A stretch of 28,431 bases of DNA from a virus (IMGVR_UViG_3300027974_000129:1-28431); one strand, 5' to 3'. Shown: positions 2,296 through 17,027, counted from the stretch's first letter. The notes: generated by a model from the letters alone, not told the origin. Program-made: numbers and translations.

Positions 2296-2324
2296 TTGAA
2301 ACAGTTTTGCTTACATGGTATAAT
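2296..2324 (+). promoter_or_regulatory. Sigma70-like promoter for 2382-4354 genes
   Basis: TTGAAA (2296-2301) and TATAAT (2319-2324) are separated by exactly 17 bp. The -10 box is followed by AGTACCAAAATA, which recurs after the promoter at 7889-7917. The T-rich arm of the terminator lies directly upstream of -35. Transcription should start near 2331, giving a leader of about 50 bases before the ATG at 2382. Confidence 0.88.
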
Positions 2325-2381
2325 AGTACCAAAATAAAAGCACCAGAATATAATGTTGGTGTATATCAACAAGGAGTTAAG

Positions 2382-2786
2382 ATGGCAACCACACTATACT
2401 TTGTACAAAGTGACACCTTACCGCAAATCAAATTAACCCTTACAGATGAAGTCACCAGTGCACCCAAAAATTTAACTAATACAACTGTACAGTTGAATGC
2501 TAAACCTAGTACAGGCACTGGAGTGGCTTTTGTACGACCTGCAACTATACTAAACAGTACGGACTTGGCAAATGGAATTGCCTATGTGATATGGGAGAAC
2601 GGCGACCTCAATCGTCCAGCAGGAACTTACACAGCAGAAATCGAACTGTACAATACAAACACTGGTTTAAGAGAAACTGTGTACGAAACGTTCAACTTGG
2701 TAATACGTGAAGATATCGCTGATATACTACCACTTCCCACAACCCCCAATAACACTCCGCCACCTAATGCCAATCCCGGAGGCTGA
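2382..2786 (+). CDS. Small baseplate/tail fibre adaptor-like protein
   Basis: A 134-residue beta-rich protein. I chose the ATG at 2382 because AAGGAG sits 5 bases upstream; an ATG at 2307 would lie upstream of the -10 box. The pattern (N-terminal strand, 'D-x-L-P-Q-I-K-L-T-L', 'L-T-N-T-T-V-Q-L', 'G-T-Y-T-A-E-I-E-L') resembles the N-terminal domain of BppU-type upper baseplate proteins, and the protein appears to be a shorter relative of the one at 7976-8563. The tail is Pro/Asn-rich (last 20 residues). It is the first gene of its transcription unit and ends 2 bases before the next ATG. A structural role in linking fibre to baseplate is inferred from family resemblance and position. Confidence 0.6.
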   Translation: MATTLYFVQSDTLPQIKLTLTDEVTSAPKNLTNTTVQLNAKPSTGTGVAFVRPATILNSTDLANGIAYVIWENGDLNRPAGTYTAEIELYNTNTGLRETVYETFNLVIREDIADILPLPTTPNNTPPPNANPGG

Positions 2787-2788
2787 CC

Positions 2789-3865
2789 ATGGCTTCTCTT
2801 AAGGTACTTATAGAAAAGGTTTCTAGTACTATAATTACTGAGGCCTCCTACGCCAGCAGAACCATAGCGGAATATCTTACGGGACTATTCTCCATACCTT
2901 GGAGGCGTTTTACAACAGATGTAATTAACTTAGCAGAAAGCTTGACCAATCTGTTTGGTAAAAATACACAGGATGGAGTAAATGTTAGTGATCAGATTGG
3001 TCAGATTGACTTTGGCAAAAGACCTGTTGATGTCATCAACATTTCTGAGGTGGTACAATCAGACTTCAACAAAAACACAACAGATCAATTAAACCTAGTT
3101 GAAAATTTTGAAAAAGGTGTTGGTAAAAACACATCAGATCAAACAAACATTTCTGATGTTCAACCCACAGTAGACTTTGAAAAAGGATTGTCTGATAGTG
3201 TTAACACAACAGATGACCTCAATGGTGCTGCGGTAGATGATGATCAGTTAGTGTCCTACTTTAAGGCATCAGATGATCAGCTCAACCTTACAGACAACTT
3301 CAGCAGAGACATACAGTTCTTTAGAGATTTAATACACCAAGCAAACATTAGTGAATCTGACGTTATAGATTTTAACAAGGTTGTACAGGATCAGTTCAAT
3401 GTCAGCGAATCAGACGTTATAGAATTTGGTAAAAACACACAAGATATTTTAAATTTTAGCGATATCTTTGATCGTACCATACAATTTTTTAGAGAGCCCA
3501 CTGACAGTTTAAACATTACGGACCCTCTACAATCAAGTTTTGGTAAACCGTTTCAACACACTACTCAGCTGTCGGACACTGCCTTTGTGGAGATGTTGTT
3601 CAATGTTGGGTTAACCGACCCGTTAAATGTAACAGACGATATCAACGGTGCTGCTATAGATGATGACCAACTGGTCACATTCTTTAAGGTGTCCACAGAA
3701 CAGATCAATTTTAGCGATCAACTGGACTTGGTCTTACTGTTTGACCGAACCCCCACTGATCAAGCAAATATATCCACAACAGGATTAATTGTTAGTCAGA
3801 ATTATATAAACGGAGCCGACTACTTCTCACAGGATTATGTAGGGGTTTCCAGGACAATTACATAA
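2789..3865 (+). CDS. Tandem-repeat virion structural protein (DxxN repeats)
   Basis: 358 residues. GGAGG lies 6 bases before the ATG. From about residue 48 the chain is made of 16-22 residue units with the pattern F-x-K-x-x-x-D-x-x-N-[hydrophobic]-[ST]-[DE]; GKNTQD and GKNTSD recur. A larger internal duplication is also visible: residues about 140-170 (DDLNGAAVDDDQL) match about 282-312 (DDINGAAIDDDQL). The C-terminus ends NGADYFSQDYVGVSRTIT; I recall similar D-Y-x-G-x-S-R-T endings in repeat-rich structural proteins of marine phages, which I have not verified. The chain is acidic with no cysteine in the repeats. It is probably an extended fibre or virion-surface protein; the function is unknown. 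Confidence 0.65.
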   Translation: MASLKVLIEKVSSTIITEASYASRTIAEYLTGLFSIPWRRFTTDVINLAESLTNLFGKNTQDGVNVSDQIGQIDFGKRPVDVINISEVVQSDFNKNTTDQLNLVENFEKGVGKNTSDQTNISDVQPTVDFEKGLSDSVNTTDDLNGAAVDDDQLVSYFKASDDQLNLTDNFSRDIQFFRDLIHQANISESDVIDFNKVVQDQFNVSESDVIEFGKNTQDILNFSDIFDRTIQFFREPTDSLNITDPLQSSFGKPFQHTTQLSDTAFVEMLFNVGLTDPLNVTDDINGAAIDDDQLVTFFKVSTEQINFSDQLDLVLLFDRTPTDQANISTTGLIVSQNYINGADYFSQDYVGVSRTIT

Positions 3866-3880
3866 CCAGAAAGGTTTTCT

Positions 3881-4354
3881 ATGAACTCCCAAGAAAATTT
3901 GAAAATTACAGGCAAGTTAAACATCGTGGTCACGGACGAACACGGTGTAGTAAAAGACAAGAGAGATGTGGACAACCTGGTTGTTACCAGTGGTTTGACG
4001 TACATTGCTAGCAGAATGGCTACAGCCACAGCCGGTGCAGCAAGCCACATGGCTGTTGGTACAAGCAGTACTGCTGCAGCTGCAGGTCACGTCAATCTAC
4101 AAGCAGCAGAATCTGCCAGAGTTGCCCTAACCAGTACAACTCCCGGCAGTACCAGCATTGTTTATGTAGCCAGTTTTGGTCCAGGTGTTGGTACAGCTGC
4201 ACTTCAAGAAGCAGGTATATTTAACTACGGCACGTACACAGCTTCACCAGGTGCCAACCAGCACATGTTGTGCCGTACAGTGTTCAGTGTGATCAACAAA
4301 GCTGCAAACGATACCATGACTATTACTTGGACAATTAACCTAGTAGCAGTTTAA
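3881..4354 (+). CDS. Small conserved virion protein
   Basis: 157 residues, with GAAAGG 6 bases before the ATG. The sequence shows an N-terminal strand-rich segment (residues 8-27), 'DNLVVTSGLTYIASRM', then 'SHMAVGTSS', 'ARVALTST', 'EAGIFNYG' and 'MLCRTVFSVINK', ending in T-I-T-W-T-I-N. This order of motifs is familiar from a small phage virion or tail protein family widespread in aquatic phages; no enzyme motif is present. It is the last gene before the double hairpin at 4364-4420. Confidence 0.6.
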   Translation: MNSQENLKITGKLNIVVTDEHGVVKDKRDVDNLVVTSGLTYIASRMATATAGAASHMAVGTSSTAAAAGHVNLQAAESARVALTSTTPGSTSIVYVASFGPGVGTAALQEAGIFNYGTYTASPGANQHMLCRTVFSVINKAANDTMTITWTINLVAV

Positions 4355-4363
4355 TCTATCTAT

Positions 4364-4387
4364 AAAAGAGCTCCTAGGAGCTCTTTT
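4364..4387 (+). terminator. Perfect 24 bp palindrome, terminator-like
   Basis: A fully self-complementary 24-base sequence (arms AAAAGAGCTC and GAGCTCTTTT around CTAG) starts 10 bases after the stop of the gene ending at 4354. It has only a four-T end that lies within the stem, so it may terminate weakly or act as a processing or partial-readthrough site. No promoter is visible before the next gene. Confidence 0.65.
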
Positions 4388-4391
4388 ACCC

Positions 4392-4420
4392 TACCAATAA
4401 ATTTTAGGAATTTATTGGTA
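4392..4420 (+). other. Second hairpin upstream of fibre gene
   Basis: TACCAATAAATT (4392-4403) pairs perfectly with AATTTATTGGTA (4409-4420) around a 5-base loop. There is no T tract after it. It lies 5 bases after the palindrome and 27 bases before the fibre ATG, upstream of AAGGGG, so it may shape readthrough or translation of the fibre gene. Confidence 0.6.
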
Positions 4421-4447
4421 TGGTAACATCAACCACAAGGGGCACAG

Positions 4448-6877
4448 ATGGCACAAATTACTACAAGACAAACAGCAGGTGTTGGAGCTACAGTTGCTGG
4501 AGTTCCTCTAACCAACGCTCAACTAGATCAAAACTTTATCAACTTAAATACTGATAAACTGGAGTTAGGTGGTACGTATTCCAGCGGCACCGCGTCCGGC
4601 GTGACCTACCTCAACGGCAGCAAGGTGCTGACCACGGGGAGTGCGCTGACGTTTGATGGGCAATATGTAAGTATTGGTGCAGGTGCATCAAGCCCAAATG
4701 GCATTAAATTTCTTGCAAATGGCGGTGGGTTGGCAGCAAATTTAACTGTCAATCACTCAAGTGGAGAAATTCAAAACTTTGCCACTACAAATTATTTTCA
4801 AACTTGGTACGCCAACAACGCCGAACAAATGCGCGTCGACTCCTCCGGCAACCTCGGGATTGGGACGAGTTCGCCTGCTTATAAGCTGGATGTTCAAGAT
4901 TCAAACCCAAACATTGCACAATTCACATCATCAGGCTCTTCCACCTCTTTGCGGATTAACAACACCAATGCCAATGCTTGGGGCAGCAACATTGGAATTT
5001 TTACGGGTGGTACAGCGGCTGGTTACTTCGGCACGATTGGTTCGTTGCTTGGAAACACTACGCAAGACTTGGCTGTGTACGCCACCGCAGGGAACGGGTT
5101 CCGCGTTTACACAAACGGCAATAACCTCAGAGCCACCCTCGACTCCTCCGGCAACCTCGGGATTGGGACGAGTTCGCCTGTAAACAAACTGGTTGTGTCC
5201 AACGCAGGGGCCGCAGGGTTTGAGTTTGATCCGGCTAACGGCATCATGCAGACCTACAACAGGTCTGGCGCTGCCTATACCGCCGCAAAGGTATACGGGC
5301 TAACTTTTGAAGTTAGAACTGGAGCTTCTCCAGCGGCTAACACTTTCTTTATCGACTCCTCCGGCAACCTCGGCTTGGGGGTGACGCCGAGTGCGTGGAG
5401 TACAAACTACAAGACCCTTCAAAGCGGTAACGGGTCAGCATTTGTTGGTTTTGTTGGGAATGATCAAACATTTGTTGTTAGCAATGCTTACAACGATGGC
5501 TCATGGAAATATAAAAACACAGCAGGTGCAGGTTATTACTCGATTTCAGGTGTAAGTAGCGGCGCTCACTCTTGGTTCACCGCCCCCTCCGGCACCGCAA
5601 ATAACGCGATCAGCTTCACGCAGGCGATGACGCTGGATGCGAGTGGTCGGTTGTTGGTTGGCGTCACTTCTGCATCAGGAAACGCTGCGCTGCAAGTCAA
5701 AGGCGCTACGTCTGGTTATGCCAGACTTGAAGGTACAAGCAGCACGCTGTTTGCAGGAGATGCAAGTCTATTGATTATTGGCGGCGGGGCGACCGAATCC
5801 GCTGTTCGCGCAGAAGGGGCGTTGTTGTTTGCTTCTGGTGGTGCCACCGAACGCGCCCGCATCTCCTCCGACGGCACCTTCCGAGTCAAGGGAGCAGGCA
5901 CTGCTGGAAGCACGGATGCAGTGCAGTTCAGTGGTAGCGCCCCGGCGTCAGCGATGACGCTGGATGCGAGTGGTCGGTTGTTGGTTGGGGCTACAAGTGC
6001 TTCTTCTGGCGCAAGGGCTACATTAACAAGTGCCGCTCAATCATCAGGGGCCGCTTGTGCAGATTCAGGGATTTTGCTTTACCCCACAGCAAGTCTTGCC
6101 ACTGGCGAATACGCTCCGTTTATTACTTGGTCTGGTAATTCCACAAACCCCAACCGCGCACGGGCTGCTATTGGGGCCGTTTCTTCAGGTACTAGCACTG
6201 CATTAGATTTAGTTTTCTTGACCAGAAGCGCAGCAGATGCCTCTGAAATTGGCACAGGTTCCGAACGCGCCCGCATCACGAGCGGGGGGTACTTTAAGGC
6301 GAGTAATGCTGGTACTTATCAAAATGCGGCTGCTGCATACCACGAATTAAGGCAAACTGCATCTGATTGGATTGGATATTTTGTAAATACAAACGCGACT
6401 CCTTATGGAATTCAGTTTGGGCATATAACTGATGCAAATAGCACTGGGAGTCCATTTTTCCAATGCACAGCAGGGGCGGCACTTGGCACGTTAAGAGCAG
6501 AAATCCGCTCCAACGGTGGCCTTGCCAACTACAGCGCCAACAACGTCAACCTCTCCGACCGCCGCGAAAAGACCAACTTTGCTCCTGCCAAGTCTTACCT
6601 CGACACCATCTGCGCCATCCCGGTTCAGACGTTCAACTACATCGACCAATCGGAAGATGACCCCGGCCTGACGCTGGGTGTAGTCGCGCAGGATGTTCAA
6701 GCGGTCGCGCCTGAGTTGGTTATGGAGTCCAACTGGGGCACAGAAGACAACCCCAAGATGCGCCTGAGCATCTACCAGACTGACCTGCAATACGCGCTGA
6801 TGAAGTGTGTGCAGGAACTCAAATCCGAACTTGATTCCGTCAAGGCGGAACTCGCAACCCTGAAAGGACAACCATGA
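4448..6877 (+). CDS. Tail fibre with C-terminal S74 intramolecular chaperone
   Basis: 809 residues, with AAGGGG 5 bases before the ATG. Residues 1-40 (including PLTNAQLDQNFINLN) look like a virion-anchoring N-terminus and are AT-rich. From about codon 42 the DNA is GC-rich. The shaft holds repeated modules: SGNLGIGTSSP twice, SGNLGLG once, and MTLDASGRLLVG twice. The end is a peptidase S74 chaperone: NLSDRREK (S703, D704), then TFNYI, VVAQDVQAVAPELV and a terminal coiled coil (about 780-805). In this family the chaperone drives fibre trimerisation and then cuts itself off near the Ser-Asp. This is probably the receptor-binding fibre. It overlaps the next gene by 4 bases (ATGA). Confidence 0.88.
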   Translation: MAQITTRQTAGVGATVAGVPLTNAQLDQNFINLNTDKLELGGTYSSGTASGVTYLNGSKVLTTGSALTFDGQYVSIGAGASSPNGIKFLANGGGLAANLTVNHSSGEIQNFATTNYFQTWYANNAEQMRVDSSGNLGIGTSSPAYKLDVQDSNPNIAQFTSSGSSTSLRINNTNANAWGSNIGIFTGGTAAGYFGTIGSLLGNTTQDLAVYATAGNGFRVYTNGNNLRATLDSSGNLGIGTSSPVNKLVVSNAGAAGFEFDPANGIMQTYNRSGAAYTAAKVYGLTFEVRTGASPAANTFFIDSSGNLGLGVTPSAWSTNYKTLQSGNGSAFVGFVGNDQTFVVSNAYNDGSWKYKNTAGAGYYSISGVSSGAHSWFTAPSGTANNAISFTQAMTLDASGRLLVGVTSASGNAALQVKGATSGYARLEGTSSTLFAGDASLLIIGGGATESAVRAEGALLFASGGATERARISSDGTFRVKGAGTAGSTDAVQFSGSAPASAMTLDASGRLLVGATSASSGARATLTSAAQSSGAACADSGILLYPTASLATGEYAPFITWSGNSTNPNRARAAIGAVSSGTSTALDLVFLTRSAADASEIGTGSERARITSGGYFKASNAGTYQNAAAAYHELRQTASDWIGYFVNTNATPYGIQFGHITDANSTGSPFFQCTAGAALGTLRAEIRSNGGLANYSANNVNLSDRREKTNFAPAKSYLDTICAIPVQTFNYIDQSEDDPGLTLGVVAQDVQAVAPELVMESNWGTEDNPKMRLSIYQTDLQYALMKCVQELKSELDSVKAELATLKGQP
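4836..4877 (+). repeat. 42 bp exact repeat in fibre shaft, copy 1
   Basis: Exact partner at 5139-5180, with a 22 bp partial third copy at 5352-5373. It encodes the SGNLGIGTSSP shaft motif. Exact DNA identity makes it a site for in-frame recombination that could shorten or lengthen the fibre. Confidence 0.9.
5139..5180 (+). repeat. 42 bp exact repeat in fibre shaft, copy 2
   Basis: Identical to 4836-4877. The spacing is 303 bp (101 codons), so recombination between copies would keep frame and delete one shaft module. Confidence 0.9.
5624..5661 (+). repeat. 38 bp exact repeat in fibre shaft, copy 1
   Basis: Exact partner at 5951-5988. Encodes the MTLDASGRLLVG motif common in S74-type fibres. 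The spacing is 327 bp (109 codons), in frame. Confidence 0.9.
5951..5988 (+). repeat. 38 bp exact repeat in fibre shaft, copy 2
   Basis: Identical to 5624-5661 and in the same frame. Confidence 0.9.
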
Positions 6878-7206
6878 CTACCTTCACTTGGATTATTGAA
6901 TGGATGCAGTGCAAGCCCACTGAGGGCGACAACACCGACGTAGTTGTTACTGCTGGCTGGCGCTGCAACGGCGCTGACGGCGACTACGCGTCGACGGTGT
7001 ACGGCACCTGTTCATTCCCTGCGCCCGAGGGCTCTTTCACGCCCTATCCAGACCTCACCCAAGACATGGTGCTCGGCTGGATCTGGGCAGGCGGCGTGAA
7101 CAAGGACGCAACTGAAGCTGTGGTGCAGTCGCTGATCAACAACCAGATCAACCCGCCCGTCGTGCAATTGCCGCTGCCATGGTCGTCCGCCCCGCAAACG
7201 GCCTGA
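6874..7206 (+). CDS. Small fibre-associated protein in foreign cassette
   Basis: 110 residues, starting in a 4-base ATGA overlap with the S74 fibre gene, so probably translationally coupled to it. The pattern 'MTTFTW-I-x-W-M-x-C-K-P-x-E-G-x-x-T-D-V-V-V-x-x-x-W', a central 'YGTCSFPAP' with 'FTPYPDLTQDMVLGWI', and an end in N-P-P-V-V-Q-L-P-L-P-W matches a small family I recall next to S74 fibres in phages (possibly DUF7936; not checked). No catalytic motif. A role in fibre assembly is inferred only from linkage. GC-rich, as expected for a member of the imported block. Confidence 0.65.
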   Translation: MTTFTWIIEWMQCKPTEGDNTDVVVTAGWRCNGADGDYASTVYGTCSFPAPEGSFTPYPDLTQDMVLGWIWAGGVNKDATEAVVQSLINNQINPPVVQLPLPWSSAPQTA

Positions 7207-7439
7207 TTGGCTGGACCCTGCGCCGCACGGGCTTCGCGGGAGTAACGCTCCCGTGGGGCATCTACATCTTGCCCGAGCGCTTGCAAGATGCGAGACTTGT
7301 GCGGCATGAACAAGAGCACGCTAGGCAGATTGAGCTTGGTGTGATCGGGTTCTACGCCAAGTATCTATGGTTCACCCTCCGCTATGGATACCGTAATAAC
7401 CCTCTGGAGGAACAAGCCCGAAAGGCAGAAGACAAATGA
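7179..7439 (+). CDS. Small HExxH protein, putative zinc metalloprotease-like
   Basis: 86 residues, overlapping the previous gene by 28 bases. The chain contains RHEQEHARQ (residues about 45-53), an HExxH zinc-binding motif, followed by a Y-x-K-Y-L-W segment and GYRNNPLEEQARKAE at the C-terminus. The glutamates near the end could supply a third zinc ligand, as in gluzincin-like folds; that is inference. I recall short phage proteins with this H-E-x-x-H...G-Y-x-x-N-P-x-E-x-E-A-R layout near the fibre end, of unknown role. There is no signal peptide and no long hydrophobic segment. Candidate roles are host-surface or virion proteolysis; a non-catalytic structural role is also possible. Confidence 0.6.
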   Translation: MVVRPANGLIGWTLRRTGFAGVTLPWGIYILPERLQDARLVRHEQEHARQIELGVIGFYAKYLWFTLRYGYRNNPLEEQARKAEDK

Positions 7440-7537
7440 ACGAACCCAAGATCACTCTCAACGATCTGTCCATCAACGACATGAACGTGCTGCTCGCTGG
7501 CCTGGGCAAGCTGCCGCTGGACGCTGCGGTCCGATGA
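7436..7537 (+). pseudogene. Truncated small phage gene (33 codons) at module junction
   Basis: ATG at 7436 overlaps the previous stop (ATGA). The 33 residues start MNEPKITLND and contain NVLLAGLGKLPLDA, then stop abruptly at TGA 7535-7537. The 48-residue gene at 18281-18427 has the same core (N-M-I-L-A-G-I-Q-E-L-P-A) but continues with a Gln-rich tail, so this copy seems to have lost its C-terminus. GC-rich DNA gives way to AT-richer DNA in the next few tens of bases. The evidence favours a remnant cut by recombination; a genuine short peptide is less likely. Confidence 0.5.
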
Positions 7538-7851
7538 GGGCTCCGACTTCGGGGACAAGTGTGTTTAGTCCTGTTGCATCTGCGGGCGTTGCAGGAACCG
7601 TTGTTAATACTGAATTCCCAATTGACATGCAGATGCTTGGGCTTCATGGCGGGTGGGCATACAGCTTTGCCGTATATGACAGATTGCGTGGTTTACCCTC
7701 AGACACAACTACAGAAAACCTACCCGAAACAACCTCAGTAAAAGACCACATTCAACTAGTTGTTAATCGAATGGTTCAAGAATCGTCCTATCAGGAATCC
7801 AACATGCCTTGGGCTCCAACTCCAGCCCCCGTTCCTGCACCCACACCTTGA
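7534..7851 (+). CDS. Hypothetical protein at cassette edge, Pro-rich tail
   Basis: 105 residues from the ATG at 7534, which overlaps the TGA of the truncated gene (ATGA). There is no good Shine-Dalgarno, so translation likely depends on coupling. An open frame continues upstream to 7384, but that part is a shadow of the previous two genes. The real part shows 'GTVVNTEFPIDMQMLG', 'HGGWAYSFAVYDRLRGLP', 'DHIQLVVNRMVQESSYQES' and a Pro/Ala/Thr tail. I do not recognise it. The Pro-rich end resembles that of the protein at 2382-2786, which also ends in Pro/Asn repeats. It may be the C-terminal part of the gene that stood here before the foreign cassette arrived. It stops 1 base before a terminator. 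Confidence 0.5.
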   Translation: MRAPTSGTSVFSPVASAGVAGTVVNTEFPIDMQMLGLHGGWAYSFAVYDRLRGLPSDTTTENLPETTSVKDHIQLVVNRMVQESSYQESNMPWAPTPAPVPAPTP

Positions 7852-7852
7852 C

Positions 7853-7885
7853 AAAAATACCCAGCACTACAGCTGGGTATTTTTT
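7853..7885 (+). terminator. Rho-independent terminator after fibre cassette
   Basis: A 13 bp perfect stem (7853-7865 with 7872-7884), a 6-base loop and six Ts (7880-7885). It starts 1 base after the stop. Its AAAATACCC...GGGTATTTTTT flanks match those of the terminator at 2261-2292. Confidence 0.92.
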
Positions 7886-7888
7886 CGC

Positions 7889-7917
7889 TTGAACACTTTT
7901 TCCTTGTATGATATAAT
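7889..7917 (+). promoter_or_regulatory. Sigma70-like promoter for 7976-16009 genes
   Basis: TTGAAC (7889-7894), a 17 bp spacer and TATAAT (7912-7917), followed by AGTACCAAAATA as in the promoter at 2296-2324. It sits 3 bases after a terminator in the same layout. It probably drives the structural and lysis genes up to the terminator at 16012. Confidence 0.88.
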
Positions 7918-7975
7918 AGTACCAAAATACAGTAAGACCAAATTTTTGTGTCTTGTTTAGATCAAGGAGCGCCCT

Positions 7976-8563
7976 ATGGCAAGTCCAACAAAACTGAACC
8001 TAAAAGTTTATCAGGGCAGTACCTTTCGTGAAACCTTACGTTGGGAAAGTGCCTTAAAAGTATACGCACCTATTACCAATATTTCAAAAACTGCACCCAT
8101 GGTGGTCACTGCCTCTAATCACGGAGTACCAGTCGGCTGGAGAGTAAAGATCAGTGGTGCTCTTGGCATGAAAGAAGCCAACACTGGTGACAATTACCTA
8201 ACCACTAGTGAAGTTGCTGCCAACACAGCGACCTTTAACTCAGTTAATGCACTGAACTATACAACCTACACTGGTGGTGGGGTCCTGGAGTACAATCAAC
8301 CTGTCGACTTGGCCGGCTATACTGCACGAATGCAGATTCGTGAAAAAATTACCAGCAACACTGTGTTAGAAAGTCTAACCTCCAGTAACGGAAAAATATT
8401 ACTAGACAATACTAACAAGAGTATTAGTTTAATTATTAGTGCCACTACCACAGCAGCCTATATTTGGAAAACTGGTGTTTATTCTTTAGAACTGGAAAAA
8501 GATGGAGCAGTCATACCTTTGATATACGGCTCAGTAAGTGTTGAACCAGAGGTAACCAGATGA
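7976..8563 (+). CDS. Baseplate/tail fibre adaptor-like protein
   Basis: 195 residues, with AAGGAG 6 bases before the ATG. It has the layout of a phage family I recognise from fibre loci: 'QGSTFRETLRWES' near the start (residues 13-25), 'VDLAGYTARMQIREKI' in the middle (about 115-130), 'NGKILLDN', 'ISLIISATTTAAYIW' and 'GVYSLELE' ending 'GSVSVEPEVTR'. A segment at about residues 35-90 (VTASNHGVPVGWRVKISG) looks like an inserted beta domain. The core resembles the N-terminal domain of upper baseplate (BppU-like) proteins and the protein at 2382-2786. It overlaps the next gene by 4 bases (ATGA). A structural role is inferred from family and position. Confidence 0.65.
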   Translation: MASPTKLNLKVYQGSTFRETLRWESALKVYAPITNISKTAPMVVTASNHGVPVGWRVKISGALGMKEANTGDNYLTTSEVAANTATFNSVNALNYTTYTGGGVLEYNQPVDLAGYTARMQIREKITSNTVLESLTSSNGKILLDNTNKSISLIISATTTAAYIWKTGVYSLELEKDGAVIPLIYGSVSVEPEVTR

Positions 8564-8955
8564 AGTTGAGTGCTGCTATTAGAAACAGTATGATTTCACA
8601 ATATGAAACATACTTAGGAACTTCACCAACGATCGAGTTACGTACAGGACTGGTACCAGCGTCTACTACTGATGTAGACACAGGAACTTTATTGGCTGTT
8701 ATAACATTGCCACTAGACTGGTTGAGTGCTCCTGTTAATGGTACCGTATCGCTACAAGGATCTTGGGTTGGTACTACAATATCTAGTGGTACAGCCACAC
8801 ACTATAGATTAAAAAATAGTAGCGGTATTACCCATGAACAAGGTTCGGTATCTATTACCGGAGGTGGTGGTGATTTAGAGTTAGACAACACCAATTTAGC
8901 ATTGAATCAAATAGTTCAAGTAACAACTTGGACACGAACACAAGGAGGCCAATAA
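8560..8955 (+). CDS. Small virion structural protein, paralogue A
   Basis: 131 residues; start ATG overlaps the previous TGA. The chain reads like a single beta-sandwich: 'ISQYETYLGTSPTIELRTG' (residues about 12-30), 'DVDTGTLLAVITLP', 'DWLSAPVNGTVSLQGSW', 'GTATHYRLKNSSG' and 'LALNQIVQVTTWT'. The next gene has the same motif order, so the two are tandem paralogues. This motif order occurs in small proteins of many phage tail loci; the function is unknown. No Shine-Dalgarno is needed if it is coupled to the upstream gene. Confidence 0.62.
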   Translation: MKLSAAIRNSMISQYETYLGTSPTIELRTGLVPASTTDVDTGTLLAVITLPLDWLSAPVNGTVSLQGSWVGTTISSGTATHYRLKNSSGITHEQGSVSITGGGGDLELDNTNLALNQIVQVTTWTRTQGGQ

Positions 8956-9327
8956 ATGGCAGTAACTTACACAACAGCAGTAAAAAATGCTCGTCTTAAT
9001 GCGGTAACGACTGCCATTGGCACTACCGGAGTACTAGAGATTGGTACCTCAGCTATGGGAACAGTATTAGCCACTATAAACCTAGCAAATCCGGCCGCCC
9101 CTGTGGCAGCGAGCGGAGTATTAACATTTACTATGCCACAGAGCGATACAGCAGCGGATGCCACAGGCACTGCAGCAGCAGCTCGTATTCGTACTAGCAG
9201 TGGCGGTACCGACATTGTAACTGGTTTAACAGTGGGTACTAGCGGTACTGATATTGTCCTAGACAATATCAGTATCAATACAGGACAAACCATCACTATT
9301 ACTAGTGCAACTATCACACACGCCTAA
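8956..9327 (+). CDS. Small virion structural protein, paralogue B
   Basis: 123 residues; ATG follows the previous TAA directly, with GGAGG upstream inside the preceding gene. Shared order with paralogue A: an N-terminal helix (KNARLNAVTTAIG), 'GVLEIGTSAMGTVLATI', 'AARIRTSSG', 'DIVLDNISINTGQTITIT'. Composition is Ala/Thr/Gly-rich with no Cys or Trp. It is probably a beta-sandwich virion component; its partner and place in the particle cannot be told. Confidence 0.62.
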   Translation: MAVTYTTAVKNARLNAVTTAIGTTGVLEIGTSAMGTVLATINLANPAAPVAASGVLTFTMPQSDTAADATGTAAAARIRTSSGGTDIVTGLTVGTSGTDIVLDNISINTGQTITITSATITHA

Positions 9328-9339
9328 GGAGCTTGAACT

Positions 9340-9780
9340 ATGTCAATGACCAACACGGCCGAAGCCAATTTCTTAGGCTTGCTATTTCAAAATATAAACT
9401 GGGCTAACATTGGAGACGCCACCGGCTTGAGGAATGCCTCAACAGCTGGCTCACTATTTATCAGCCTACACACAGCCGATCCAGGCGAGACAGGTACTCA
9501 AACTACCAACGAAACAACATATACCTCATACAGCCGAGTAGGTGTAGTAAGAAGCAACAGTGGATTTACGCTTACTGCACAGACTATTACCAACGCAGCT
9601 CTGGTACAGTTTCCACAGTGCACAGGCGGTACTTCAACAGTTACCCACTTTGGTATTGGCACAGACAGCTCAGGAGCCGGCAACTTGTTGTTAAAGGGTG
9701 CCCTAGCTTCACCTCTATCAGTTAGTAACGGTATTCAACCTCAATTTGCAGCGGCTGCTCTGAGTGTAACGGTTGACTAA
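9340..9780 (+). CDS. Conserved phage tail-type protein
   Basis: 146 residues, with AAGGAG 8 bases upstream of the ATG (a second ATG lies two codons later). Motifs 'LFISLHTADPGETGTQTTNE', 'YTSYSRVGVVRS', 'FPQCTGGTSTVTHFGIGT' and 'GNLLLKGAL' form a pattern common in phages of many hosts, often annotated as tail fibre or tail protein. There is no enzyme signature. It sits in the middle of the structural operon; a place in the virion is inferred. Confidence 0.65.
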   Translation: MSMTNTAEANFLGLLFQNINWANIGDATGLRNASTAGSLFISLHTADPGETGTQTTNETTYTSYSRVGVVRSNSGFTLTAQTITNAALVQFPQCTGGTSTVTHFGIGTDSSGAGNLLLKGALASPLSVSNGIQPQFAAAALSVTVD

Positions 9781-9785
9781 TTGTA

Positions 9786-10655
9786 ATGTTTAATACTATA
9801 AGTGACATTGCCAATTCTTGGGATACCAATAGGGTATGGCGACAACACTGGCATAAAACTGCAAACCCACAGTTATCAACTGCAACTGGGGGATTTTGGT
9901 TAGATCTTTCCATGGCAGCCGGTACCCCCAAGTACAATGCTTATGTAGGTGATCAGTTGGCATTTACTCCCTTAATAGGGGCTAGTAATAATGGTATTAA
10001 CTGTGGTACTGGTGGAGACAGCTGGATACACAGATACAACTTGAGTGGTGGTGGTAGTACAACAGCAGCATGGCCTGCTGGAGTGGTTATGTTAATGGAC
10101 TATGTAGGGTTCTATCCGCTCGTAGACATGGACAACATAGACGAACAGGTCTTTGACAACACTCTTTTGAGTTCTCGCTATGCCTCTGGTATGCGTTGTA
10201 TGGTTGTTACTACGACACCTCAAACGGCCGCCAGTCCTACACAGGTCCTTTTAGAGTATGAAGGTAGTAACGGTGTAACCACAGTATCCAGCTTTTTTGT
10301 AAATTCTACAGTTGCCGCAGGTGCCCTCAACTGTTTTTCTAGCGTTACCGGTGGCAATGTTTCTGGTGTTGCTGCTCCATTTGTACCTCTTGGTCCTGGT
10401 ACTTTTGACGTAAAAAAATTAAATAGTGTAAGAGTAACTGGTTCCTCTGGTGGATTTTGTGCTTTTGTTTTAGTTAAACCAATTTTAGAAGCGATCATTG
10501 TGGATACCGCTACTCCATACGAGATCGAAGCGCCTCGAAATATGCTGCCCTACTACGTACCAAACGGAGCATATTTAAATCATATAGTGTGTGGTAATAA
10601 TGGTAGTGCAGCTGCTGGTATTACCAGAGGTCATATAACATTTGTAAGGAGATAA
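9786..10655 (+). CDS. Virion structural protein, short paralogue
   Basis: 289 residues. The Shine-Dalgarno is poor, 5 bases separate it from the previous stop, so it may be read by coupling. Landmarks: W18/W22 (RVWRQHWHK), 'GGFWLDLSMAAGTPKYNAYVGD', 'DYVGFYPLVDMDNIDEQ', 'SSRYASGMRCMVV', 'FVPLGPG', 'CAFVLVKPI' and 'NGAYLNHI'. The following protein carries the same landmarks in the same order (W-x-x-x-W-x-K, DL-x-x-S-x-I-D, PRY, P-L-Q-A-G, CKPI), so they are paralogues; this one lacks the insertion in the longer copy. Family unknown to me; a virion component by context. Confidence 0.6.
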   Translation: MFNTISDIANSWDTNRVWRQHWHKTANPQLSTATGGFWLDLSMAAGTPKYNAYVGDQLAFTPLIGASNNGINCGTGGDSWIHRYNLSGGGSTTAAWPAGVVMLMDYVGFYPLVDMDNIDEQVFDNTLLSSRYASGMRCMVVTTTPQTAASPTQVLLEYEGSNGVTTVSSFFVNSTVAAGALNCFSSVTGGNVSGVAAPFVPLGPGTFDVKKLNSVRVTGSSGGFCAFVLVKPILEAIIVDTATPYEIEAPRNMLPYYVPNGAYLNHIVCGNNGSAAAGITRGHITFVRR

Positions 10656-10656
10656 A

Positions 10657-11928
10657 ATGGGATTTGCAAGCTATGACGATCTGGTAAATCAGGTCACAAC
10701 AAACAATAAAATCTGGCTACAGCCCTGGAATAAGATCACACCCACAACAATGGCTGCGGGACGTTGGTATGATTTATTTTTAGGCAGCAGTGATCGCGGT
10801 CAAGGATACCACGGCAATTACGTTCGTAACTGGGGTTTTGATTCTATTGCCGAGTGGACCGGTGTAGGTGCAGGGGGTTGGGCGTGGAATATTGCTGGTA
10901 CCGTGGTACATACTGCTGGTACTCCAGGGTCCTTATCCCAAACGCCACTAGCTACTATCGAGGCTAATACACCCTACACAATTATTGTAACCACCAGCGC
11001 TCCCGCAGGGTCGGGTGGTATCACTATTGATATTGGTGGTACAGCATCCTCTTCTATTACTACAGCTACTACTTCTACAATACAAGTTACCACAGGTGCA
11101 TCACCTACTCAGACTATAGCAATCACGGCGGCCAGTGCTCAAACGATGACTGTAGATAACTTGATTGTTATTGCAGGTACTAGCACCGGTCAGTCTCCTC
11201 GATTCATGCCCTATAACCAAAACATGCAGGGAAGTATTTGGCCAGGAGACTTAATTGGTGGTAGTGCAACCAAGCACCTACTCACCATGAGCGCACAAAC
11301 AGCTGGTGCAACCACTGTACCAATCACACTGTTGTTGGTTGACCTATTGGGCAGCTACTCACGTATTGACAGTAATATAGGTACCGCTATTACCTTAGCC
11401 AACACTTTGACTCTTCCACGTTATACAACAGGTGCAGGTGTACTGGCATATTCTGTTGTAGCTCCTACAACAACAGGTGTTAATGCGCACAATATACTTA
11501 CTACTTATACCAATCAGGCCAACGTAGGTACCAGAAGTCTGCCTCAAACCGTAGCAGCCACAGTAAGTGCAGTAAACTCACACATCTACCACAGTGGAAC
11601 AGCTGCCAACAATATTGGTCCGTTTTTGCCACTACAGGCTGGCGACACAGGTATTCGATCTGTACAAACTTGGCAACAAACTGCTGCCAATGGTACTGCA
11701 AGTACCTTTACGAACTTGGTATTATGCAAGCCCATTATGGAACTTCAACTTACCACTCAGTTCTTATTAGCCGAGCGTGATATGTTAAACCAGTTCCCTA
11801 GTTTACCACTGATACAAGAAGCAGCCGCTGCATCAGGTGCTTGTTTAGGATTTTTAGCTTATGCAGGTAATACTACGCCAGGTAATACTAACTTTTTTGG
11901 TGTCAACAGATACGCCTGGGGTGGTTAA
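10657..11928 (+). CDS. Virion structural protein with inserted CBM-like domain
   Basis: 423 residues; AAGGAG lies 5 bases before the ATG. The backbone is shared with the preceding 289-residue paralogue (W20/W24, 'GRWYDLF', 'LPRYTTGAGVLAYSVV', 'PFLPLQAGDTGIRSVQTW', 'LVLCKPI'). Between residues about 54 and 172 there is extra sequence absent from the paralogue: 'NYVRNWGFDSIAEWTG', 'GGWAW', 'LATIEANTPYTIIVTTSA', ending 'MTVDNLIVI'. N-x-G-F-x-x-x-x-x-W at the start and D-N-L/V-x-V at the end are typical of carbohydrate-binding-module-like jelly rolls (CBM4/9 type), so sugar binding is plausible but unproven. The backbone family is unknown to me. Confidence 0.6.
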   Translation: MGFASYDDLVNQVTTNNKIWLQPWNKITPTTMAAGRWYDLFLGSSDRGQGYHGNYVRNWGFDSIAEWTGVGAGGWAWNIAGTVVHTAGTPGSLSQTPLATIEANTPYTIIVTTSAPAGSGGITIDIGGTASSSITTATTSTIQVTTGASPTQTIAITAASAQTMTVDNLIVIAGTSTGQSPRFMPYNQNMQGSIWPGDLIGGSATKHLLTMSAQTAGATTVPITLLLVDLLGSYSRIDSNIGTAITLANTLTLPRYTTGAGVLAYSVVAPTTTGVNAHNILTTYTNQANVGTRSLPQTVAATVSAVNSHIYHSGTAANNIGPFLPLQAGDTGIRSVQTWQQTAANGTASTFTNLVLCKPIMELQLTTQFLLAERDMLNQFPSLPLIQEAAAASGACLGFLAYAGNTTPGNTNFFGVNRYAWGG

Positions 11929-12543
11929 ATGGCTTTGCGCTTTAACGGTCAAAGCCCAACGTCAGTAAGCGGTTCTTTTTCTTCTTTTCCAAACAGAGTT
12001 ATTGGTACGGTAGTTGGTAACACCGTCCACACTGGTATGACACCACTGTGGGGGGCTAGAAGAGCTGCATTAACCGCCTTTGGTAAGTTAGCGGGTATAC
12101 CAGACGGTACTACCCATCCGATATCTTGGCAAATGCCTAATCGTGCCGGAACGATCTCTTCTCGCTATAATGAAATAAGGGTTACACCTTCGGCATCGGG
12201 TACTAGAGGTCTACCGACGTCCGGATCTGTAAGTATTACATTTGCGGTAGATCCTGCACAGCTTCAGTTGATCGTGTCTACTCAAGGCACCACTGCTATA
12301 ACTTTTACACTAACGGGTAATGCTGGGGCCGTTCTGGATGCTGTAGCCAACATACAGCTACAATTTACTGTTCAAAATGCTCAAATTGAAGCTAAAGCCA
12401 ATACAGAAGGTACTTCTTCTATGGTGTTTACCGCAACCGCAACTCCAAAAGCATTGGGTAATATAGAGGGCACTATTACACCATTTACAGAATTAAGTCC
12501 ACAGAGCCTAGCACAAGCAGTTTGGTCCTATCAGCTGCCATAA
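11929..12543 (+). CDS. Hypothetical virion structural protein
   Basis: 204 residues; ATG directly follows the TAA of the previous gene. The first 100 residues include 'SFPNRVIGTVVGN' and 'PISWQMPNRAG', and the second half is beta-rich and low in charge ('QLIVSTQGTTAITFTLTGNAG', 'IQLQFTVQNAQIEAKA', 'SMVFTATATPKALGNIEGTI'), with 'LAQAVWSYQLP' at the C-terminus; A-x-A-V-W-S-Y endings are seen in phage adaptor or structural proteins. I do not recognise the family. No membrane segment or enzyme motif. Confidence 0.55.
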   Translation: MALRFNGQSPTSVSGSFSSFPNRVIGTVVGNTVHTGMTPLWGARRAALTAFGKLAGIPDGTTHPISWQMPNRAGTISSRYNEIRVTPSASGTRGLPTSGSVSITFAVDPAQLQLIVSTQGTTAITFTLTGNAGAVLDAVANIQLQFTVQNAQIEAKANTEGTSSMVFTATATPKALGNIEGTITPFTELSPQSLAQAVWSYQLP

Positions 12544-12561
12544 TACTCTTAGAGGTATAAT

Positions 12562-14220
12562 ATGACCACAGCAGCACAAAAACTGGTTGCACTATCTGGA
12601 TTGACCGGTGTTAGTGCTGCAAATCACTTAATAGCAATAAGTACTGGCGGCACCACTGCAGGTTCTAGACTGTTGAGCAGGTCTGGAATTGCCAGTGGTA
12701 CTGCTGCTGAACATTTAAACAGTATAGTAATTGGTGGTAGTAGAACCGGTACTTTAACAGTTGTAGAAACTGGTCTAGACCAATTTAATGCTACCAATAT
12801 TAGCGGTGCTGTTAATGGGTACTTAAGTGGTATTGAGACTGGCACTGACAGTTTCCAAGGACTAGCAAGATCTATAATATCTGGCACGTTAACAGGTCAA
12901 GAATTAGGTCAAGATACTGCTTTAATAATTAGTAAATCTATTACCCTTGGCATCCTTACCAGCCAAGAAGTAGGTCAAGATACAGCAGATTTAGCAGCAA
13001 AACTACTAGTAAGTGGTACACTATTGCCCACTGAACTGTCTGATATCGCACAGCTATTGGGCAAGTTATCTGTTAATGGTACTCTAGCAGCCACAGAACT
13101 GACCGACACAGTTCAAGCTATTGCCAAGATTTTAATTCGTGGTAACATAACAACTAGCGAATTAAATTTAGATAGTACCCAAGCAGTAGCTAAATTATTA
13201 GTAAGAGGTGCTCTGGTTGCCTCAGAGACTGGCAACGATGTAGCTCTTAGTGTAGCCAAGGTACTTGTTAACGGTACTTTGAGTGCCACAGAGTTTGGTG
13301 GCCAAGACCTATTCTCTAGTGGCGGCGTAGCAAAAATTGCTTATGGTACCGTTAATGCTCTAGAATCGGCAGACTATGGCTCAGTAATAGCAAAATTATT
13401 AGTCAATGGAACACTTGCTCCAACAGAGCTAACTACAGATCAGGCCGCTATACTGGCTAAATCTATAGTTACAGGTACGGTGGGCGTATCAGAGGCCCAA
13501 ACAGACCAAGCTCAGATAGTAGCCAAAGCTATATTTAAGGGCCAACTGGCTGGTATAGAGCCAACTGTTGACATTGCCCAAGCACTGGCCAGGTCTATTG
13601 TTACAGGTTACTGGACCTCAACAGATTCTATAGATCAGGCAAGCAGTACTGGCAGAGTAGCCATAACAGGACTTGCTTCAGCACTTGAAAATCCAGATCA
13701 GTCCAATTTAATAGCTAAATTACTGATTCGTGGTAACTTTAGTGCAACTGAAACAGAAACAGATAGTCTTCAGGGTCTTGCTAAATCAGTTATTTCTGGC
13801 TACTCTTCTACTACAGAGTTTGGTAGTGATTTTGCTCAATTTAGTGCTAAACTTTTACTAAAAGCGTCTTCTGTTAAATCAATAGATATAGCATATACTT
13901 CTATTGGTCAAACCAAAGTAGCGGTACTAAGTAATGTAGTAATACCAATTACCGGATCTGGCTCAGCAGTAAGAATAGCTATAAGCTCAAGGGTATCAGA
14001 AACCTACATAAGACAAGTAGAAGATGGCATAGTTATTAGTGCTTCCATACCTGAGCCCTTATTTATAACTGTTATATCTAAAGATAGTATAGTCTACCAC
14101 GGAGTAGCCAGCGAGTTTATTATTACTCAAACTGTTGATGACATATTTGTCAGTACAGATAACGCAGTTCAAAATGTAACCGATGTTGGAGTAAAACAAG
14201 TAGTAATTACTGAACTATGA
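12562..14220 (+). CDS. Long tandem-repeat virion protein (about 17 units)
   Basis: 552 residues; AGAGGT lies 5 bases before the ATG. From about residue 65 to 435 the chain consists of about 17 units of 20-24 residues with consensus G-[TYN]-[LV]-x-x-x-E-x-x-x-D-(5)-A-K-x-[LI]-[LIV]-x (for example GTLAPTELTTDQAAILAKSI). Units diverge but keep G, E, D and the A-K pair. The last 110 residues are beta-rich and non-repetitive (SIGQTKVAVLSNVVIPITGS onward). Regular spacing suggests a solenoid or extended fibre. I know no function for it. It is the last structural gene before the lysis pair, a position where fibre or fibre-adaptor genes are often found. Confidence 0.62.
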   Translation: MTTAAQKLVALSGLTGVSAANHLIAISTGGTTAGSRLLSRSGIASGTAAEHLNSIVIGGSRTGTLTVVETGLDQFNATNISGAVNGYLSGIETGTDSFQGLARSIISGTLTGQELGQDTALIISKSITLGILTSQEVGQDTADLAAKLLVSGTLLPTELSDIAQLLGKLSVNGTLAATELTDTVQAIAKILIRGNITTSELNLDSTQAVAKLLVRGALVASETGNDVALSVAKVLVNGTLSATEFGGQDLFSSGGVAKIAYGTVNALESADYGSVIAKLLVNGTLAPTELTTDQAAILAKSIVTGTVGVSEAQTDQAQIVAKAIFKGQLAGIEPTVDIAQALARSIVTGYWTSTDSIDQASSTGRVAITGLASALENPDQSNLIAKLLIRGNFSATETETDSLQGLAKSVISGYSSTTEFGSDFAQFSAKLLLKASSVKSIDIAYTSIGQTKVAVLSNVVIPITGSGSAVRIAISSRVSETYIRQVEDGIVISASIPEPLFITVISKDSIVYHGVASEFIITQTVDDIFVSTDNAVQNVTDVGVKQVVITEL

Positions 14221-14233
14221 TAGGAATATAACT

Positions 14234-14719
14234 ATGCTAGAATTTGCAGCAAGTGGGATACTGGGATCAATCTTTGGTGGATTGTTCCGTCTAGCCCCAG
14301 AGGTGTTAAAGTTTTGGGATCGCAAAGACGACCGCAAACACGAACTGGCAATGTATGGCTTACAGATTGACTTGGAAAAGACCAAAGGCCAAGCCAAGAT
14401 CGAAGAAAAATACATCGACTACAGCATTGCACAAACTCAGGCTATTCAGAGTGCTTTTGAGGGTCAGGCAAAAGAAGCCGCGGCAAGTTACCGTTGGGTA
14501 GCTGCATTGAGTGCTTTAGTGCGGCCCATGGTAACATACATCCTGTTTGGTATGTATGTGGCTTTCAAGATTACCATCATTGTGCACGCTGTGAACAGCG
14601 GTGCTAATTGGATCGACATAGCTCGCAACCACTGGACTGCAGACGACTTTGCAATGTTAAACATGATTTTAACATTCTGGTTTCTAGGTCGCTCTATTGA
14701 AAAGCGTGGTAATTCATGA
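14234..14719 (+). CDS. Putative holin (3TM type)
   Basis: 161 residues; AGGAAT upstream. N-terminal hydrophobic helix (residues 3-22, ASGILGSIFGGLFRLAP), a charged middle rich in K/D/E (27-80), and two hydrophobic segments (97-119 and 137-153) with R97-P98 before the first. The layout and the motif 'SYRWVAALSALVRPM' match what I recall of the GTA-type 3TM holin family. It directly precedes and overlaps (4 bases, ATGA) the endolysin gene, the classic holin-endolysin arrangement. It would make the inner membrane permeable at the end of infection. The family assignment is from memory. Confidence 0.68.
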   Translation: MLEFAASGILGSIFGGLFRLAPEVLKFWDRKDDRKHELAMYGLQIDLEKTKGQAKIEEKYIDYSIAQTQAIQSAFEGQAKEAAASYRWVAALSALVRPMVTYILFGMYVAFKITIIVHAVNSGANWIDIARNHWTADDFAMLNMILTFWFLGRSIEKRGNS

Positions 14720-15252
14720 CTTCACAAGCCGTCAAACTATGTACAGATGCCCTTTTACACCCGTTTGAGGGCTATCACAAAAAGATGCCAAACGGTGACT
14801 GTGAAAGCTACCCAGACCCCGCGAGTCCACTAGGTCGGGGTCTGGTGTCAAAGGCCCAAGCCGCGACCATGACACCAGATGAGCTACTCAAGGCAGGTCA
14901 CCCTTGGACTATTGGCTGGGGTGTTACTGGACCTGACATTGTGCCTGGTTTGACTTGGACACGCCAACAGGCAGACGAACGCTTTGAAGCAATGCTCTCA
15001 AAGTTTGTCGCAGGAGCACTAAGCCTTAGTCCAGACTTGATAAATGAACCGCCCAGAAGGTTGGCGGCAATCATTAGTTTTTGTTACAACTGTGGTTTAG
15101 GCAACTACAGGATTAGCACTCTTCGTAAGAGGGTCAATCAGGGTGACTGGAACGGTGCTTACGAAGAAATACAAAAATGGAATAAAGCGCAAGGTGTTGT
15201 GTTAAATGGATTAACACGCCGACGCTTAGCAGAAGGCAGATTTCTTCTGTAA
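14716..15252 (+). CDS. Endolysin, GH24 (T4-type) lysozyme
   Basis: 178 residues. The family triad is visible: E18 (PFEGY), D34 in YPDP, and T65 in TIGWG, with the C-terminal 'GVVLNGLTRRRLAEGRF' typical of phage lysozymes. It cuts the beta-1,4 bond between MurNAc and GlcNAc in peptidoglycan. Compared with T4 lysozyme, about 25 extra residues lie between Asp and Thr (ASPLGRGLVSKAQA...), a form I recall in other phage lysozymes. No signal peptide or anchor is seen, so release depends on the holin upstream. It ends 28 bases before phoH. Confidence 0.92.
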   Translation: MTSQAVKLCTDALLHPFEGYHKKMPNGDCESYPDPASPLGRGLVSKAQAATMTPDELLKAGHPWTIGWGVTGPDIVPGLTWTRQQADERFEAMLSKFVAGALSLSPDLINEPPRRLAAIISFCYNCGLGNYRISTLRKRVNQGDWNGAYEEIQKWNKAQGVVLNGLTRRRLAEGRFLL

Positions 15253-15280
15253 GCACTTCATCAACCAACCTTCAAAATCT

Positions 15281-16009
15281 ATGGCAAATCAGCGTAATTC
15301 CGGTAAGCGTGCACGTAAAAATGAAATTTTATATACTGATATGGGGAACCATTCTCCTCAAAAAGTAAGTGTAAAGTTTCCTAGATTAGAGGCCCAAACA
15401 TATAGGCAACAAGATTATTTAGATGCTATAAATAATAAAGATATTGTTTTTGCTACAGGAGCAGCAGGTACGGGTAAAAGTTATGTAGGAATTCATTATG
15501 CAGCGGAGCAGTTATATTACAAAAAAATAAATAAAATTATTCTTACTCGTCCTGCTGTAGAAGCATGTGGGGAAAATCTTGGGTTTTTACCTGGAGAGCT
15601 GATAGATGGCAAACTTATGCCTTATCTTATTCCTTATACAGAAACCCTTAATGAATTGCTAGGAAAAAGTTTTGTAGAATATTGCTTAAGAACTAATATT
15701 ATTGAACCAGTACCACTAGCATTTATGCGAGGACGCTCATTTAAGAATTGTATTATTCTAGCGGACGAAATGCAATCAGCTTCCCCAATGCAGCTTAAGC
15801 TGCTACTGACTCGTATTGGTGAAAATACTAAGCTTTTAATTAATGGAGATATTGCACAAAGAGATATTATTGATGCTACAGGCCTAGAGGATGCTATTGG
15901 AATTCTTAGACATATTCCTGAAGTAGAAGTAATCAATTTCTCGGACGATGATTGTATTAGAAGCAATTTATGTAAAAAAATATTGCGCGCATATAGTGGA
16001 TATAGATAA
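15281..16009 (+). CDS. phoH: PhoH-like ATPase
   Basis: 242 residues. Walker A GAAGTGKS (residues 60-67) follows the PhoH-typical QxDYLDAI (Q-motif-like) region; Walker B ends in I-I-L-A-D-E (D162, E163), followed by 'QSASPMQLKLLLTRIG' and 'LLINGDIAQRD'. PhoH is a P-loop RNA/DNA-dependent ATPase common in phages; its role in infection is unclear and it is not diagnostic of phosphate stress. The ATG at 15281 has no clear Shine-Dalgarno, and the gap after the lysozyme is 28 bases. The DNA is more AT-rich than the lysis genes before it. The gene ends at a bidirectional terminator. Confidence 0.92.
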   Translation: MANQRNSGKRARKNEILYTDMGNHSPQKVSVKFPRLEAQTYRQQDYLDAINNKDIVFATGAAGTGKSYVGIHYAAEQLYYKKINKIILTRPAVEACGENLGFLPGELIDGKLMPYLIPYTETLNELLGKSFVEYCLRTNIIEPVPLAFMRGRSFKNCIILADEMQSASPMQLKLLLTRIGENTKLLINGDIAQRDIIDATGLEDAIGILRHIPEVEVINFSDDDCIRSNLCKKILRAYSGYR

Positions 16010-16942: not shown

Positions 16943-16964
16943 AAAAGTTTCTCCATAAAAATTT

Positions 16965-16993
16965 ATTTTACTACAAAAGCAATGACTTGTCAA
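16965..16993 (-). promoter_or_regulatory. Promoter for GIY-YIG gene 1
   Basis: On the minus strand TTGACA (16988-16993) and TAAAAT (16965-16970) are 17 bp apart, a near-consensus sigma70 promoter. It is preceded by AAGTTTGTATC. It points away from the plus-strand promoter 35 bp to the right, so the two are divergent. Confidence 0.8.
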
Positions 16994-17027
16994 GATACAA
17001 ACTTTAAATACCGGCATAAATTTAGAT

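Follow-up and report, generated by a model that had tools for sequence, protein, structure and literature searches.

An exchange slot in an AT-rich tailed phage, very probably filled by an imported GC-rich fibre cassette

Introduction

Retention of the N-terminal anchor with exchange of the distal fibre between distant phages is a known class of mechanism (PMC10579305, PMC10684548). The Alteromonas phages A5, V22 and P24 have a host recognition module in common (PMC10579305) and, as at the locus described here, phages of unrelated families share the fibre, a chaperone and small neighbours as a block. In those phages a separate protein, of the DUF4376 type, serves as chaperone, and the ten-gene block is shared at the protein level. 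Here, an S74 domain within the fibre takes this part, the homology is found at the nucleotide level, the entry point lies inside the fibre gene and the seams are placed to the single base or to some 30 bases. For the swapping of receptor-binding proteins, conserved DNA motifs were proposed as recombination hotspots (PMC10408124, which cites Tetart 1998). There too, the anchor is retained and the receptor-binding part is exchanged across genera, with conserved motifs near the joints. However, those motifs border the receptor-binding part, whereas the linkers found here recur many times in a single fibre and exceed in GC the inserts that they separate. A protein-profile survey of domain shuffling in phage receptor-binding proteins, in which breakpoints are not mentioned, described fibre fragments common to otherwise unrelated proteins (PMC10684548). 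Such fragments are also found here, but with breakpoints and leftover pieces resolved in the DNA. That distal fibres are exchanged while the anchor is conserved, also by recombination at conserved motifs, is thus already known, and the present locus is a well-resolved new example.

Results

The virus and its gene context

The window analysed is an entire IMG/VR contig of 28,431 bases from a tailed phage, an uncultured bacterial virus. Its general layout is given by two features.

131 to about 14,220, + strand: probable structural genes
14,716-15,252: endolysin gene, 3' of the probable structural genes

Beyond the endolysin gene follow phoH, homing endonucleases, ribonucleotide reductase, dUTPase, SbcC/D-like subunits, SSB and a helicase. 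Two homing-endonuclease-like genes on the - strand (16046-17017 and 18446-19144) lie where the window is richest in AT (GC 0.32-0.33). The 708-residue protein encoded at 131-2257 contains a near-exact internal repeat, MSVDAAYTDVVVTIRDATGTA...RISYSLSRTGATG. When a backbone probe (14234-16009) was compared with isolated-phage records, no similar DNA was found.

The left seam and the contents of the slot

Backbone relatives were retrieved with the gene just upstream and one gene just downstream of the locus, and cassette relatives with the fibre and with an 86-residue protein encoded behind it. The comparison divided the start of the fibre gene into two parts.

4448-4554, + strand: native N-terminal fibre anchor, residues 1-36 (...PLTNAQLDQNFINLNT), matched by the DNA of backbone relatives
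4555-4586, + strand: left seam interval, between backbone homology (to 4554) and homology to other fibres (from 4579-4586)

The anchor DNA matched the backbone relatives L113, L114 and L125 at 72-76% and the match ended at 4554. In L113 and L114, the homology to the left of the slot ran up to this base at 72% over about 760 bases. The cassette relatives matched the window from 4579-4586 onwards. At the protein level, residues 1-36 (weakly to 61) were the only part common to the fibres at the same place in backbone relatives (L111, L112, L113, L114, L125 and L131), showing that the anchor is conserved within this phage group. Beyond residue 36 (weakly 61), the fibre matched fibres of phages with unrelated flanks, a positive outcome of the check suggested with the preliminary description. 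The preliminary description, which placed the onset of GC-rich DNA at about codon 42 and regarded the N-terminus as native, is borne out by these matches.

Between 4554 and 7853, the backbone relatives carried unrelated genes with only small patches that matched the window, and this distal fibre was absent from all backbone relatives compared. In L125 this slot is occupied by other genes over about 9.7 kb, and the gene sets differed again in L126, L127, L112, L131 and L111, so the distal part is unrelated among backbone relatives. Upstream of the slot (6593-8551), L111 has a GC 0.53 fibre of its own that shares these linkers and ends in an S74-like part. Three glycine-rich genes with a GC of 0.54-0.57 were seen inside the slot of L125 (1647-5252), among neighbours of 0.41-0.43. 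Because these genes stand among AT-rich neighbours, GC-rich DNA has probably been imported into the slot more than once.

Base composition and codon use

The GC content was about 0.38-0.46 in most of the flanks and 0.51-0.59 across most of 4750-7500, and dropped again after 7500. GC3 in the fibre gene was 0.21 for codons 1-43, 0.48 for the distal part before S74 and 0.72 for S74, and the three satellite genes had values of 0.75, 0.67 and 0.79 in their order. The frame at 7534-7851 had a GC3 of 0.39 and the backbone genes a mean of 0.34. For the imported part of the fibre (4577-6877) GC3 was 0.52, whereas contiguous backbone runs of the same size never exceeded 0.47. The codon use of the cassette genes deviated from the backbone by 0.33-0.53 bits per codon, compared with 0.15 for the frame 7534-7851 and at most 0.13 for every remaining gene. 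Codon use is therefore not uniform across 4448-7851; it changes at the left and at the right seam, as does GC3, and the compositional step proposed from a first inspection is real. Within the fibre the composition alternates, with high GC in the linkers and inserts near the backbone level.

The cassette and its relatives

Behind the variable part of the fibre, three imported features follow each other.

6503-6877, + strand: S74 intramolecular chaperone at the fibre end (Pfam PF13884, E 3.7e-13)
6874-7206, + strand: imported DUF7936 protein of 110 residues (PF25590, E 4.2e-26)
7179-7439, + strand: imported 86-residue HExxH protein, 87-96% identical in amino acids in most of about 30 contigs

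The S74 domain (residues 703-758) scored 50 bits against a Pfam cut-off of 22. It contains the motif LSDRREK; as an S74 chaperone it would cut itself at the Ser-Asp site once trimers have formed. In 51 of the 69 distinct loci with enough downstream sequence, a DUF7936 gene lay immediately 3' of S74, and from this position a role in fibre assembly may be assumed. The DUF7936 variants are exchanged: in L021 and L031 the fourth gene is the same but is preceded by a different DUF7936-like gene. The predicted DUF7936 model (pLDDT 93) has three long strands and two helices; in a structure search it matched no solved structure, and its significant matches were other DUF7936-like viral proteins only.

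The 86-residue protein accompanies S74 fibres in about 30 viral contigs. Its residues H43, E44, H47 and E77 are invariant, giving an HExxH motif with a later Glu as in zincins. The structure search with its model returned insignificant matches only, several of them zincins. By its motif, the protein is possibly a miniature zinc protease. A scan of genome contigs yielded no relative of it that would point to a host.

The satellite genes occurred at about 87-93% nucleotide identity in contigs with unrelated left flanks, and homologous distal fibre parts also stand on unrelated backbones. The left flanks of the contigs with the 86-residue gene that were long enough to compare formed four groups besides that of the window, whereas the right flanks were less clear-cut: single linkage merged most of them, the window among them. 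The flank GC of the cassette carriers ranged from 0.41 to 0.70, compared with 0.51-0.61 for the satellite pair. The best cassette relatives were 90-95% identical, and individual pieces at 97-99% came from different contigs. Among isolated-phage records, a BLAST search with the cassette found only MW202825.1, at 70%. Only one contig, 3300027973_000448, was found to share both the fibre and the flanks, and it is the same virus.

The right seam and the border of the slot

The right edge of the slot consists of four features.

7436-7537, + strand: fourth gene of the cassette, cut short by the seam to 33 codons (L107 has 56; homology stops at 7528)
7529-7695, + strand: internal fragment of a family of 650-700-residue proteins (PMRAPTSGTSVFSPVA...DRLRG), found in MW202710.1 (49% in amino acids) and many contigs
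7696-7851, + strand (start about 7696): C-terminal remnant of a DUF7936-like gene (61% in amino acids, with a 78% nucleotide patch)
7853-7929, + strand: right border, a terminator followed by a promoter-like TTGA...TATAAT, where backbone homology resumes

In about 20 cassette relatives, the homology to the window ended at exactly 7527/7528. In these relatives, ...GACGCTGCG|TACCCTGTG leads on into a gene of full length; the window has ...GCG|GTCCGATGA at this place. In L107 the full-length fourth gene has 56 codons (MNEP...GLSD). Since the relatives continue as TACCCTGTGTTCATGAAGGTCAAGGCGCAAGCTGAAGCGCAG to complete the gene and the window diverges to GTCCGATGA, the fourth gene is truly truncated. 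The cut at 33 codons had been noticed beforehand and is exact, with the TGA overlapping the ATG of the next frame at 7534. At 7528, no more than about three bases could be microhomology with the second protein family, which suggests illegitimate joining. In L107, the HExxH gene is separated from the fourth cassette gene by an ORF (7804-8481) resembling by eye an HNH-type homing endonuclease.

The DNA to the right of this seam had been taken for intact recipient sequence. This view had to be given up, as 7529-7851 consists of two joined gene fragments and the native register returns only at 7853. A native gene at 7529-7851 was dismissed because its two halves match different families. From 7529 to about 7695, the sequence encodes PMRAPTSGTSVFSPVASAG...DRLRG, which is internal (around residues 340-410) in MW202710.1 and in many contigs. 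As this family adjoins an annotated tail fibre in MW202710.1, it is probably a tail fibre family. The remnant at 7696-7851, with the translation VKDHIQLVVNRMVQESSYQESNMPWAP, corresponds to the C-terminal third of a DUF7936-like gene. It is 61% identical in amino acids to residues 71-106 of the intact gene L130:4062-4409, with 78% nucleotide identity over 7738-7830. In the backbone relative L130, this intact gene stands behind an AT-rich S74-type fibre, and in L112 a homologue is the last long gene before the terminator. The layering of these fragments suggests repeated refilling of the slot.

The relatives L123-L127 matched the window from exactly 7853, at about 91% nucleotide identity over 6.9-7.4 kb. 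Thus, foreign homology does end near 7540, at 7528 with a visible seam, but the exchange slot extends to 7852. Terminator-plus-promoter elements (GGGTATTTTTT...TATAATAGTACCAAAAT) that are about 81% identical occur at 2256-2336 (the copy aligned over 2260-2336) and at 7853-7929. The two copies, both kept in backbone relatives, frame the tail-gene block 2307-7851, and the right copy is the exact border of the slot.

The fibre body

The variable part of the fibre is a patchwork, in which two inserts could be traced to other contigs.

4580-6502, + strand: imported fibre body with GC-rich linkers alternating with AT-richer variable inserts; patchy nucleotide homology
5619-5863, + strand: insert common to L021 (97% in nucleotides), ending at repeated motifs at 5624 and 5847-5863
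6261-6532, + strand: insert common to L037/L038 (97% in nucleotides), from the motif CCGAACGCGCCCGCATC to the S74 start

Nucleotide homology to other fibres was found as short patches at 4580-4660, around 4836-4880, at 5139-5180, 5352-5401, 5573-5661, 5847-5981 and 6261-6320, and in the S74 domain. The patches encode linkers such as DSSGNLGIGTSSP, several of which are repeated within the fibre. In the window, GC3 was 0.73 for the linkers plus S74 and 0.38 for the variable inserts, with the backbone at 0.34. Contrary to the original description, the fibre is therefore not uniformly GC-rich. The linkers had a higher GC3 than the inserts in 80 of 84 distinct fibres. When codons were pooled by amino acid, this excess was seen for most single amino acids (Ala, Gly, Ser, Thr, Leu and Val) but not for Glu and Phe. 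Both linker GC3 and insert GC3 track the genome GC (r about 0.7). Here the window is an outlier: for a flank GC of 0.41 the fitted line gives a linker GC3 of about 0.46, but the value is 0.84.

Judged by their identity, the inserts 5619-5863 and 6261-6532 have recent relatives in different phages. Among 70 fibres, 26 of 63 ends of shared segments lay within 30 bases of a linker, compared with 10.2 +/- 2.9 at random, a clustering that is inflated because alignments of shared inserts naturally run on into the conserved linkers. For the DSSGNLGIGT motif, the pairwise codon identity was 0.50 where 0.33 was expected. An exact 20-mer of a linker had six scattered matches in genome contigs. Linkers as frozen DNA signals were also considered; strict DNA conservation is ruled out, as AT-rich phages have AT-rich codons there. 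We regard it as a tentative and rather doubtful proposal that the GC-rich linkers (DSSGNLGIGT, YLNGSKVLTTGSALTFDG, ERARI, MTLDASGR) are kept as joints for recombination, at which fibres are assembled across families from a common pool of AT-richer inserts.

Discussion

The locus has two seams, relatives with unrelated slot contents, and cassette homologues with unrelated flanks; the fourth gene is truncated and fragments of two other genes lie to the right of the seam. We conclude that an exchange slot at 4555-7852 was, with high probability, filled in this virus by an imported GC-rich cassette of fibre, S74 and satellites that replaced older contents. The preliminary interpretation of a swap with other phages was largely right but needs two corrections: the fibre is a patchwork, and the DNA at 7529-7851 consists of two joined gene fragments instead of an intact native gene, with the exchanged slot reaching to 7852.

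The slot is bounded by the native fibre anchor on the left and by the terminator-promoter element on the right. The distal fibre, the S74 chaperone, the DUF7936 and HExxH genes and the start of the fourth gene very probably came from phages of about 55-60% GC; among the cassette relatives no single source was found, the best being 90-95% identical. The right seam may have formed by illegitimate or microhomology joining, and the fibre body would have been built by swapping inserts at the GC-rich linkers, which offer short stretches of homology. Since the DUF7936-like gene left as a remnant at 7696-7851 is intact behind an AT-rich S74 fibre in L130, the recipient very probably carried, like L130, an AT-rich S74 fibre followed by its own DUF7936-like gene. 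The allele before the swap would then have had the same backbone, this fibre and an intact DUF7936-like gene ending VKDHIQLVVNRMVQE; no such allele of this virus was found among the relatives, and the recipient state is reconstructed from relatives of 70-90% identity. The swap may also have altered which bacteria the phage binds.

An artificial join of an AT-rich phage contig to a fragment of a GC-rich phage has to be weighed, as the contig is metagenomic, its left seam is known from one assembly only and lies outside the second contig, and repeated, conserved linkers invite misassembly. We consider such a chimera very improbable. The second contig is 99.99% identical over 5615-15436 (9.8 kb) and includes the right seam, the reading frame is unbroken over the left seam, and the DNA to either side of the slot is that of one phage group, in unchanged order (L112, L113/L125, L131). 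The composition could also belong to an ancestral fibre, shaped by translational selection or protein composition without import. Because almost every fibre has linkers with more GC than its inserts, part of the GC contrast is indeed intrinsic to the protein family. Nevertheless, an ancestral origin is just as improbable as a chimera: the distal fibre was found in no backbone relative, the nucleotide identity to phages with unrelated flanks is about 90%, the non-fibre satellites are equally GC-rich, and the linker GC3 of 0.84 stands against an average of about 0.5 in phages of the window's GC.

The internal repeats and hypervariable inserts might instead point to a dedicated variation machine, that is, a diversity-generating retroelement or an invertible tail-fibre switch, in place of exchange between phages. 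This explanation is the least probable, and we give it hardly any weight. The fibre is neither flanked nor interrupted by substantial inverted repeats; between 4400 and 8000 only chance-like pairs occur (22 nt at 73% and 14 nt at 93%). The inserts are whole segments common to other phages and not mutated copies of a template. Among the window proteins scanned with PHROGs, no reverse transcriptase, integrase or invertase family was found, in a contig that may be a fragment.

With import into the slot as the preferred explanation, the locus presents a natural swap of host recognition that can be dissected almost base by base, with its point of entry, what was displaced and what remained. The sequence itself shows the two seams as well as broken pieces of two further genes. 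If the linkers are indeed maintained as joints, phages of different families and GC content would have a multi-joint construction kit for fibres in common. The contrast in GC between linkers and inserts suggests a testable rule for recombination sites in such fibres.
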